The position numbers were made by a program, and so were the translations under genes. A stretch of DNA of 64,000 bases from an uncultured Pelagibacteraceae bacterium. GTDB taxonomy: Bacteria; Pseudomonadota; Alphaproteobacteria; Pelagibacterales; Pelagibacteraceae. The stretch is from contig CACGOM010000004.1 in NCBI GenBank assembly GCA_902574705.1, forward strand, positions 1-64,000, written 5' to 3'. Positions 14,868 to 17,535 of this stretch are shown here, one piece after another; the stretch's first letter is position 1; every line of letters begins with the position of its first letter. A model generated the notes under the pieces. The model was not told the origin of the DNA. It saw nothing but the letters and a program-made list of their open reading frames with translations, and made no database searches.

Positions 14868-16943
14868 ATGAAAATACCACAGTTAACCAAAAAACCTGAA
14901 TTAAAATCTTGTCACAATGTTGATTGGGAAGATAATTATAGTTGGATCCATCAAAATAACATTTTAGAAGTTTTGAGGGATAGCTCAAAACTTTTACCAG
15001 ATGTAAGAAAATACCTCGAAGAGGAAAACGCTTACACAGAGCACCATTTAAAGGACACAAAAAATATTCAAAAAAAATTATTTGATGAGATCAAAGGTAG
15101 AATTAAACTAGATGACCAGTCTTTGCCCTATAAGGACAAAATCTATGAATATTGGACCAAAACTACCACTAAAGGAAATTACTCTATTAAACTTAGAAAA
15201 AAAATTGGATCAGATAAAGTAGAAGAAATCTGGAATGGTGACAATGAGAAAGAAAAATTAAAAACTGAGTATTTCGGTGTTGGTGACTTAGAGGTAAGTT
15301 ATAACGATAAATATCTTGGTTACTCTTTAGATTTAAAAGGATCTGAATATTATACTATTTATATAAGAGATATTGAAACCAACGAACTAGTTACAGAAAA
15401 AATTGAGGAAACGAGTGGCAGTATTACTTTTAGCTTAGATGATAAGTTTATTTTTTACTCAAAATTAGATGAGCATCATAGACCTAGAAAAATATTTAGA
15501 CATAAATTAGGAACTTCGGTTAAGGATGATAAATTAATATTTGAAGAAAAAAGTGAAGCTTTTACCTGTGGGATCGGTGTAAGTTCTGATGAGAAATATT
15601 ATTTTATATCAACCTCAGATCACAATACATCTGAACAATATTATTTTTCTAAAGAAGAAGAAAATCCAAAACCTAAACTTATTAAAGAAAGAAAAAGGGG
15701 TGTGATTTATGCTGTAAATTCTTGGGATGGAAAATTTTATTTACATACAAATGAAAAAGCTGAAGACTTTAAAATTGATTATTGTGAAGATCTTAAAAAT
15801 CAAAATTGGAAATCTTTTATTCCAGCCAAAGATGAGGTTTTAATTGGTGGACTTGTTTTTTTAAAAGATTGGATAATAAGATCTGAAACTTCAAATGCTT
15901 TGGGTAAATTAATTATTAGAAATCCTAAAACTGGTGAAGAAAATGATCTTAACTTTGTAGATGAAAAAGTTATAGTTCCTGGCATATCATTAAAACAAAG
16001 GGATAAAAATACTGATGAAGTGTATTTATCGTATTCTTCGCCTAAAACTCCAGGCAAAACGTATTTGTATAATTTAAAAACAAAAGATAAAAAACTAGTT
16101 AAAGAACAAGAAATTCCATCAGGTCATAATCCAGATGATTACATTGTAGAAAGATTGGAGTGCCCTTCTCATGATGGAAGATTGGTTCCTATAACTATTA
16201 CAAGACACAAAAAAACAAAAATTGATGGAAGTGCAAACATACTTTTATATGGTTATGGATCTTATGGCAGTTCAATGTCACCTGGGTTTTCATCAACAAG
16301 ACTAAGTTTAATTGATAGAGATATAATTTGGGCAACAGCTCATATTAGAGGTGGAATGGAAAGAGGGATGAAATGGTGGAAAGAAGGTAAATTATTAAAT
16401 AAAAAAAATACCTTTAAAGACTACATTGCAACTGCAAAATTTTTAATTGATAAAAATTATACTTCAGAAGGAAAAATAATTGGAATGGGTGGATCTGCTG
16501 GTGGACTATTAATGGGCGCAGTAGTTAATACAGCCCCAGAATTGTTTTTAGGAATGATAATGGCTGTTCCTTTTGTTGATTCTTTAACCACAAACCTTGA
16601 TCATTCATTACCACTGACAGTTGGTGAATTTGATGAATTTGGAAATGCAAAAGATAATAAAGAACACTTTGATTATATTTATTCTTATGCTCCATATAAT
16701 AATATTAAAAAAATGGATTATCCTCATATTTTTATTACAACTAGTCTAAGTGATAACAGAGTTTTATTTGATGAGCCCGCAAAATTCACTGCAAAACTAA
16801 GAGATTATAAAACTGACAATAATTTACTTTTATTGAAAACAGAAATGAATGCTGGTCATGGTGGTAAGACTGGAAGAGATAGTGCTATAGAAGAAGTTGC
16901 ATTAGATTATGCTTTTGCATTAAAAGTTTCGGATAAAATTTAA
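14868..16943 (+). CDS. ptrB: Oligopeptidase B-like S9 serine peptidase
   Basis: A 691-residue prolyl-oligopeptidase-family (S9A) enzyme, a cytoplasmic peptidase for short peptides. An N-terminal beta-propeller (about 70-400) caps a C-terminal alpha/beta hydrolase. The catalytic triad is visible: Ser543 in GMGGSAGG, Asp629 in SLSDNRV and His664 in AGHGGKTG. The GSYGSSMSPGFS and AHIRGG segments are typical of oligopeptidase B, which prefers Lys/Arg at P1. No signal peptide is seen. Its ATG lies five bases from the divergent J-domain start, so its promoter must overlap that gene. Confidence 0.93.
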   Translation: MKIPQLTKKPELKSCHNVDWEDNYSWIHQNNILEVLRDSSKLLPDVRKYLEEENAYTEHHLKDTKNIQKKLFDEIKGRIKLDDQSLPYKDKIYEYWTKTTTKGNYSIKLRKKIGSDKVEEIWNGDNEKEKLKTEYFGVGDLEVSYNDKYLGYSLDLKGSEYYTIYIRDIETNELVTEKIEETSGSITFSLDDKFIFYSKLDEHHRPRKIFRHKLGTSVKDDKLIFEEKSEAFTCGIGVSSDEKYYFISTSDHNTSEQYYFSKEEENPKPKLIKERKRGVIYAVNSWDGKFYLHTNEKAEDFKIDYCEDLKNQNWKSFIPAKDEVLIGGLVFLKDWIIRSETSNALGKLIIRNPKTGEENDLNFVDEKVIVPGISLKQRDKNTDEVYLSYSSPKTPGKTYLYNLKTKDKKLVKEQEIPSGHNPDDYIVERLECPSHDGRLVPITITRHKKTKIDGSANILLYGYGSYGSSMSPGFSSTRLSLIDRDIIWATAHIRGGMERGMKWWKEGKLLNKKNTFKDYIATAKFLIDKNYTSEGKIIGMGGSAGGLLMGAVVNTAPELFLGMIMAVPFVDSLTTNLDHSLPLTVGEFDEFGNAKDNKEHFDYIYSYAPYNNIKKMDYPHIFITTSLSDNRVLFDEPAKFTAKLRDYKTDNNLLLLKTEMNAGHGGKTGRDSAIEEVALDYAFALKVSDKI

Positions 16944-16952
16944 TTAGACCTA

Positions 16953-16959
16953 CTTGAAA
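16953..16959 (+). promoter_or_regulatory. Possible sigma-32 -35 element of hsp20
   Basis: The sequence CTTGAAA matches the core of the heat-shock sigma-32 -35 box and lies 90 bases before the hsp20 start, just after the ptrB stop. I could not find a convincing matching -10 box at the right spacing, so this is tentative. Confidence 0.35.
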
Positions 16960-16987
16960 ATCTAAAATTCATTACTAAGTATTCTTT

Positions 16988-17042
16988 GTAAGTCGCCTGA
17001 TGGGACTTACATAAATAAACTTGCTTAAAAAGGAGGGTATAT
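16988..17042 (+). ncRNA. ROSE-like RNA thermometer in hsp20 5' UTR
   Basis: Two stem-loops fill the UTR before hsp20. Hairpin I pairs GTAAGTC (16988-16994) with GACTTAC (17004-17010) and extends by two C-G pairs past a bulged G to a UGAU loop. Hairpin II pairs CUUGCU (17020-17025) with the Shine-Dalgarno AGGAGG (17031-17036) across a UAAAA loop, giving U-A, C-G, G.G, U-A, U.G and C-G. The UUGCU facing AGGA with an internal G.G opposition is the hallmark of ROSE elements, which mask the ribosome site of small heat-shock genes at low temperature. The assignment rests on motif and context only. Confidence 0.7.
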
Positions 17043-17489
17043 ATGACAAGTAAGGATCTATCTATATTCAACTCATTAAGACCGTTTTCAATTGGTTTCG
17101 ACGATATGTTTGACCAATTTGAGAGCATGTTGGGCAATGGAGGTTTGACTATGCAGTCGAATTATCCACCATACAACATAAGAAAAACAGGTAAGGACAA
17201 CTATGCAATAGAAGTTGCTCTTGCTGGTTTTAGCAAAGATGATGTTGAAGTTGAGTTTGAGGACAATTTATTAACGGTAAGAACTAAACAGGTAAATAAG
17301 TCTGAAAACAAAAATGAAGACGGTGAAGTAATTCACAGAGGTATATCTCAAAGACAATTTGCTAGATCATTTACAATTGCAGATGATGTGAAAGTAAATG
17401 GTGCTGAATTAAAAGATGGTCTTTTGACAGTAGCTTGTGAAAGAATTTTGCCAGATCATAAGAAAAAAAGACTTATTGAAATTAAATAA
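17043..17489 (+). CDS. Small heat-shock protein, Hsp20/IbpA family
   Basis: A 148-residue alpha-crystallin-domain chaperone that holds unfolding proteins in the cytoplasm. The N-terminus (SIFNSLRPFSIGFDDMFDQFE) matches IbpA/Hsp20 of proteobacteria. The alpha-crystallin domain spans about residues 40-130 with YNIRKTGKDNYAIEVALAGF, RGISQRQFARSF and the GLLTV-type LKDGLLTVACER ending. A strong AGGAGG Shine-Dalgarno sits six bases upstream, inside the predicted thermometer hairpin. It is a single-gene unit closed by a hairpin at 17502-17525. Confidence 0.95.
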   Translation: MTSKDLSIFNSLRPFSIGFDDMFDQFESMLGNGGLTMQSNYPPYNIRKTGKDNYAIEVALAGFSKDDVEVEFEDNLLTVRTKQVNKSENKNEDGEVIHRGISQRQFARSFTIADDVKVNGAELKDGLLTVACERILPDHKKKRLIEIK

Positions 17490-17501
17490 GTATTAACCTT
17501 G

Positions 17502-17525
17502 CTTGTGGGGATTGCTCCCCACAAG
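17502..17525. terminator. Hairpin between hsp20 and the NCS2 permease
   Basis: CTTGTGGGG and CCCCACAAG form a perfect 9-bp stem with an ATTGCT loop, 12 bases after the hsp20 stop and 10 bases from the convergent permease end. No long T run follows on either strand, so it may act as a weak bidirectional terminator or a 3'-end stabilising hairpin. Confidence 0.7.
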
Positions 17526-17535
17526 TAAAAATAGT

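Follow-up and report, generated by a model that had tools for sequence, protein, structure and literature searches.

Does the short leader of hsp20 in SAR11 bacteria sense temperature through its own fold? A preliminary description of the 64,000-nucleotide stretch of DNA analyzed here (the window) had proposed that a ROSE-like RNA thermometer precedes this gene, and we find this to be the best reading of the locus, given that a U(U/C)GCU motif faces the Shine-Dalgarno (SD) sequence, that a stable hairpin stands upstream, that this hairpin covaries, and that a predicted RpoH-type promoter should start the transcript ahead of the motif. The leader is thus very likely a short, two-hairpin ROSE-like RNA thermometer, through which temperature would control translation. 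The host is a SAR11 genome of 1.07 Mb (86% complete), whose closest named relatives are single cells of the Pelagibacteraceae and in which the hsp20 gene at 17043-17489, with its start codon at 17043, is the sole copy found. The leader comprises 59 nt (16987-17045) immediately 5' of hsp20, and since the upstream neighbor, a prolyl oligopeptidase gene, ends at 16943, promoter and leader are squeezed into 99 bases. The elements of the leader and its gene are as follows.

16987 to 17011, forward strand: hairpin I, with eight pairs, a bulged G16995, two C-G pairs, and a UGAU loop (fold z score and covariation).
17020 to 17025, forward strand: anti-SD strand CUUGCU, carrying the ROSE motif U(U/C)GCU, with G17023 bulged in the favored register.
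17031 to 17036, forward strand: SD sequence AGGAGG, the 3' strand of hairpin II (sequence and conservation).
17043 to 17489, forward strand: hsp20, encoding an IbpA-like small heat-shock protein of 148 amino acids (PF00011, 8e-18).

Just past the hsp20 stop codon, a further hairpin at 17499-17528 (-21.3 kcal/mol, z -5.4), with no clear T run, is probably a terminator or a 3' end protector common to hsp20 and the convergent permease gene.

To compare the leader with its relatives, we collected 180 leaders from Pelagibacter (g1) and four related genera, of which 166 parse by one simple grammar, 125 of them distinct; the remaining 14 comprise the leaders of family f2, one of which is cut at a contig end, and two g2 leaders whose hairpin I has a longer loop. 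In every parsed relative, the leader lies directly 5' of hsp20. The anti-SD motif reads TTGCT in 164 and TCGCT in 2 of the 166 parsed leaders, with further UCGCU leaders coming from the same g3 genus, and the loop between the anti-SD and SD strands varies in length from 5 to 10 nt, with both strands preserved. In the window, this loop is UAAAA (17026-17030), and CUUGCU, the five-base loop, and AGGAGG are all present as the preliminary description had them. Its pairing scheme fared less well. It had set G17023 opposite G17033 in a symmetric G.G opposition, with the pairs U17022-A17034, U17021.G17035, and C17020-G17036, whereas the comparative data favor the classical ROSE register, in which G17023 is bulged and the pairs are U17022.G17033, U17021-A17034, C17020-G17035, and an outer pair, 17019-17036. 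Three observations favor the bulged-G register: in the UCGCU lineages, U.G becomes C-G in this register and would become C.A in the other; the outer pair is A-U in GGAGU lineages, C-G in CCUUGCU lineages, and U-A or A-U in families outside SAR11; and the pair between C17020 and 17036 that the symmetric scheme needs is broken in 36 of the 125 distinct leaders. The pairs C17020-G17035, U17021-A17034, Y17022-G17033, C17024-G17032, and U17025-A17031 are formed in 125/125. About half of the leaders, among them that of the window, leave the outer pair open, which makes it optional. The G of the motif is invariant and has no Watson-Crick partner, and the same bulged G is found in the consensus structures of Rfam ROSE_2 and ROSE_3 and in E. 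coli ibpA. Because a nearest-neighbor model rates the bulged-G register as the weaker of the two in the window itself, the RNA may exchange between them.

The stable second hairpin that had been noticed upstream is borne out and well supported. Hairpin I folds at -12.8 kcal/mol (z -4.65), a value that none of 200 shuffles equaled, and it drifts in sequence while keeping its pairing, with AU, UA, CG, and GC occurring at one and the same position. A first MAFFT alignment smeared the SD owing to the drifting loop and was replaced by a model-fitted alignment (A4; 82 leaders, 79 distinct) together with the direct parsing described above. In the model-fitted alignment, 94.0% of the cells pair (95% in hairpin I), and both-side changes occur in 9 of 17 pairs, 7 of these 9 among the 10 pairs of hairpin I. 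The covariation score is 0.226, compared with 0.130 in shuffles (0/500 as high) and at most 0.058 when the structure is slid along the alignment. Since a model-fitted alignment is shaped by the structure, the direct parse of the 125 distinct leaders serves as a model-free check, and the results agree. The SD helix itself covaries only slightly because it hardly varies: it is near-invariant, with one pair changing from U.G to C-G and a variable outer pair. The alignment of related leaders that had been suggested as a check thus came out in favor of the thermometer, with the motif conserved in all 125 and compensatory changes in hairpin I.

Upstream of hairpin I, a promoter-like arrangement recurs in 95 leaders.

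16953 to 16959, forward strand: -35 element (CTTGAAA) of a promoter of the RpoH (sigma-32) type; its distance from hairpin I is nearly constant across the 95 leaders.
16975 to 16980, forward strand: -10 element of the same promoter, CTAAGT in the window, with the clade consensus CCATAT.

In these leaders, [CA]TTGAAA is followed, after a spacer of about 15, by CCATAT, which ends about 8 nt 5' of hairpin I; we take this arrangement to resemble the RpoH (sigma-32) consensus. The TTGAA positions of the -35 element are each conserved at 96-99%, and the columns of the -10 element at C92, C80, A97, T77, A92, and T96%. The clade consensus fits a CTTGAAA-spacer-CCCCATNT-like pattern, and the host genome encodes RpoH (TIGR02392, 354 bits versus a cut-off of 323). 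The window has a perfect -35, but its own -10 matches CCATAT at only 3 of 6 positions; for this reason its promoter is degenerate or weak, and it may be weaker in this strain. The promoter prediction would place the start of the transcript at or near hairpin I, upstream of 17020.

We then asked how widely the element occurs. A covariance model built from 16 relatives with the window excluded (R1) recovered the window's leader in the host genome at an E value of 5e-13 and gave no other match there. Across 197 genomes of the order, R1 matched 134 Pelagibacteraceae genomes at E<=2e-4, and the match adjoins the hsp20 start in all rows compared. Weak R1 matches in two genomes (G166 and G204) were set aside as chance, one lying before a phasin-like gene and the other having no recognizable hsp20. 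The hsp20 search itself gave no match in some nearly complete Pelagibacteraceae genomes (G213, G091, G166, G148, and G219; genera g4 and g6), which may have lost the gene and its thermometer. A broader model (R2), run over a class-wide sample of 289 genomes, matched six loci outside SAR11; at five of these (L219-L223; families f10, f142, and f51), the match immediately precedes hsp20 and contains UUGCU-loop-AAGGAG. In f2, the second family of the order, hsp20 has another kind of leader, to which R2 gave a weak match. In the f2 leaders L158, L159, and L161-L168, one or two hairpins stand upstream, and the sequence at and around the SD, AAUCGCUUAAGGAGGAUU, is near-invariant; this could be a second ROSE-like design within the same order, with AAUCGCUUAAGGAGGAUU forming a longer helix.

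Could the pairing be accidental, an ordinary SD next to an unrelated conserved element such as a DNA-level operator? The motif TTGCT-N4-14-AGGAG has 39 exact matches in the host genome and so is not rare by itself, and the conserved nucleotides of ROSE elements were initially interpreted as a transcription factor site (PMC4166951). Nor is SD hiding special: at 10 C in silico, 47% of leaders with a shuffled upstream part hide the SD equally well, and we rejected thermodynamic SD hiding as proof of function. The case consequently rests on position and conservation. An accident would not account for the compensatory changes of hairpin I, for an anti-SD that is conserved next to a drifting loop, for the position downstream of a promoter, or for the recurrence before hsp20 in other families. 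Covariation and model matches have largely refuted chance pairing, and we regard it as very improbable.

Comparison with described RNA families gave a weaker signal. The Rfam ROSE covariance search that had been proposed as a check found no ROSE model reaching its cut-off in the window, and a search of all Rfam at the gathering thresholds returned nothing there. With permissive settings, a sub-threshold match to ROSE_3 spans the full length of that model (24 bits versus a cut-off of 43), and ROSE_3 is the only recurring Rfam match, with relatives reaching up to 35.1 bits, below 43. The window had no match to ROSE_2 (RF01832; cut-off, 65 bits), for which an E. coli control scored 100.4 bits, and none to the fourU thermometer, the strand opposite the SD being CUUGCU and not four U. 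By cut-off, the leader is no member of ROSE_3; full-length alignment and architecture suggest a diverged, A+T-rich relative. ROSE_3 is a poor surveyor here, as a search of the class under strict filters yielded six weak matches, only one of which (L196) lies before hsp20. The permissive scan also returned an lncRNA match, which we consider to be at chance level. The same holds for a weak SAM_alpha match (12.7 bits, E 1.6), the one hint that the leader might instead be a riboswitch or another known cis-regulatory RNA. This score is far under the cut-off of 36, the gene is not related to SAM, and no relative has a SAM_alpha match, which leaves that explanation with a negligible probability.

Returning to the thermometer, we propose the following working model. 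RpoH would start transcription just 5' of hairpin I, as the conserved promoter suggests, and hairpin I, whose structure is backed by covariation, would serve as a stable scaffold or 5' cap. In the cold, CUUGCU would pair imperfectly with AGGAG of the SD, leaving G17023 bulged, and this conserved pairing would block binding of the 30S subunit; warming would melt the five-pair hairpin II and allow hsp20 to be translated. Folding calculations, whose figures depend on the chosen ends, ignore non-canonical contacts, and are predictions rather than evidence of function, give only a gentle rise of SD exposure with ViennaRNA: from 0.20 (5 C) to 0.43 (35 C) or, when the sequence is cut at different ends, from 0.26 (4 C) to 0.64 (37 C). 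Under the same reservation, deletion of G17023 in silico is predicted to hold SD exposure close to 0 at temperatures up to 42 C.

When the leader was folded together with the first codons, a second partner for the anti-SD appeared: CUUGCUU (17020-17026) can pair over 7 bp with a segment of the coding region.

17048 to 17054, forward strand: AAGUAAG, the last base of codon 2 plus codons 3 and 4, the proposed competitor strand (7-bp complement of 17020-17026).

These codons are frozen. Among 134 distinct hsp20 genes of 148 codons, codon 2 is ACA and codon 3 is AGT in 134/134, and codon 4 is AAG in 131 of 132 lysines, although AGT makes up 18% of the serine codons in hsp20 and AAG 26% of the lysine codons (5 to 62% at other lysine sites). 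By synonymous entropy, codons 2-4 rank 1, 2, and 3 of 126 positions, and on a tree of synonymous changes built without the first ten codons, they underwent 0, 0, and 1 changes, compared with a median of 11 over the 126 positions. Weighted by codon usage, only 3% of the synonymous versions of Thr-Ser-Lys-Asp contain the 7-bp match. Thr-Ser-Lys (residues 2-4, 17046-17054) is near-invariant in Pelagibacter, while the N terminus differs in related genera; RNA pairing possibly constrains the amino acids at residues 2-4 as well. Pairing of codons 2-4 with hairpin I was considered and rejected, because hairpin I varies and the codons do not.

The freezing suggests that codons 2-4 take part in the switch. 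Tentatively, we propose a strand exchange in Pelagibacter and its near relatives, in which CUUGCUU would hold the SD in the cold and move to AAGUAAG in the warm; an anti-SD caught by codons 2-4 would leave the SD and the start codon in a 21-nt loop. The coding sequence might then set the switch temperature, and selection for the exchange might have frozen codons 2-4 across Pelagibacter, a possibility that we advance with equal caution. The standard energy model, a calculation subject to the limits given above, assigns the window at 10 C a probability of 0.82 for pairing with the SD and 0.15 for pairing with the coding region, and at 30 C 0.48 and 0.41, respectively. With ViennaRNA, recoding codons 2-4 synonymously (ACT TCA AAA) makes the predicted SD exposure flat, at 0.30-0.31 from 5 to 35 C, and in several relatives the coding-region pairing is preferred at all temperatures. 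Both pairings, with the SD and with the coding region, may alternatively be repressive.

It is also conceivable, to a degree that we would put somewhat below even, that the ROSE-like hairpin acts alone and that codons 2-4 are frozen for another purpose, for instance because codons 4-5 contain an SD-like AAGGA, because a protein or an sRNA has its site there, or because they signal the start of translation. The five loci L219-L223 and the g3 genus with UCGCU keep the ROSE hairpin without a complement to the anti-SD in the coding region, so that the SD hairpin appears ancestral, with the coding complement added later. Furthermore, the coding-region hairpin is no more stable than shuffles (z 0.03), and some frozen codons also occur at the start of neighboring genes in these loci, but they are common, A-rich ones, whereas codons 3 and 4 of hsp20 are less used ones. 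Against an unrelated purpose, the constraint is confined to codons 2-4 and already relaxes at codon 5 (10 changes), in keeping with the 7-bp complementarity. In addition, two genera that lost one codon (g2 and g4, with MSN and MSK) keep AGUAA after the AUG, which can pair with UUGCUUA. In the CCUUGCU lineages, AGUAAGG can serve as the partner instead.

A protein might contribute to the control of hsp20. In E. coli, IbpA acts on the 5' untranslated region (UTR) of its own mRNA to repress it, by means of Arg93, a residue reported to be common in alpha- and gammaproteobacterial IbpAs (PMC10474464), and Arg104 of the SAR11 Hsp20, which is 36% identical to E. coli IbpA, aligns with this mRNA-binding residue. 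Hsp20 could accordingly bind its own leader and repress translation until titrated by unfolded proteins, temperature then acting via the protein. This would explain an induction in stationary phase without heat (PMC5069961): IbpA of P. ubique rose 3.74-fold in sulfur-limited stationary phase with no significant change of its mRNA, and in the control stationary phase the protein rose 7.63-fold versus 3.69-fold for the mRNA (PMC5069961). The gap between protein and mRNA is consistent with translational control, but not of a temperature-driven kind. Autorepression alone would leave the anti-SD/SD pairing unexplained, and we consider it unlikely as the explanation of the leader. Since it acts together with a ROSE thermometer in E. 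coli, it is better seen as a supplement than as a rival, and given the arginine at the aligned place, it may act in SAR11 as well.

SAR11 cells, which rank among the ocean's most abundant, possess few regulators, and the element accompanies hsp20 in nearly every examined Pelagibacteraceae genome that has the gene; direct temperature sensing by RNA may therefore be a core, minimal form of stress control in warming seas. Should the coding strand be involved, a synonymous substitution might move the temperature set point. As this RNA family falls below current Rfam cut-offs, annotation pipelines miss it. The main text of a 2009 survey of structured P. ubique RNAs mentions neither heat-shock genes nor thermometers (PMC2704228), and among the open-access papers combining SAR11 or Pelagibacter with RNA thermometers, those consulted contain no report of an hsp20 thermometer. 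We likewise found no coding-region competitor for a ROSE element in the open-access literature searched. What is new here is the presence of the element throughout the Pelagibacteraceae, its corrected register, and the frozen complementary codons.

Among tested systems, the closest is the ibpA thermometer of Pseudomonas, a 62-nt UTR with two hairpins, U(U/C)GCU facing the SD, and a sigma-32 promoter (Krajewski 2013, PMC3669281), which single-nucleotide deletions lock shut (PMC3669281). The SAR11 leader shares with it a UTR of about 60 nt, a stable hairpin I, a hairpin II in which U(U/C)GCU holds the SD, a sigma-32 promoter (predicted in SAR11) before a small heat-shock gene, and a (predicted) transcription start at hairpin I. 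It differs in that its hairpin II consists of few pairs closing an A-rich loop that drifts, that its hairpin I has a conserved bulged G, and that in most Pelagibacteraceae codons 2-4 are complementary to the anti-SD. The resemblance to ROSE_3 (RF02523) extends over the full-length alignment and includes a hairpin I of eight pairs with a bulged G and CC/GG, the same spacer, the bulged-G anti-SD helix, and the start codon, but the SAR11 element is A+T-rich and has shorter loops. In ROSE_2 as represented by E. coli ibpA, a gene of the same family, CUCGCU pairs with AGGAG with its G bulged, whereas the upstream hairpin is unlike that of SAR11. Finally, in cspA and lambda cIII (PMC4166951), temperature picks between two mutually exclusive folds, and in cspA the coding region is involved; both favor translation at the lower temperature, whereas the exchange proposed for SAR11 would open the SD on warming.
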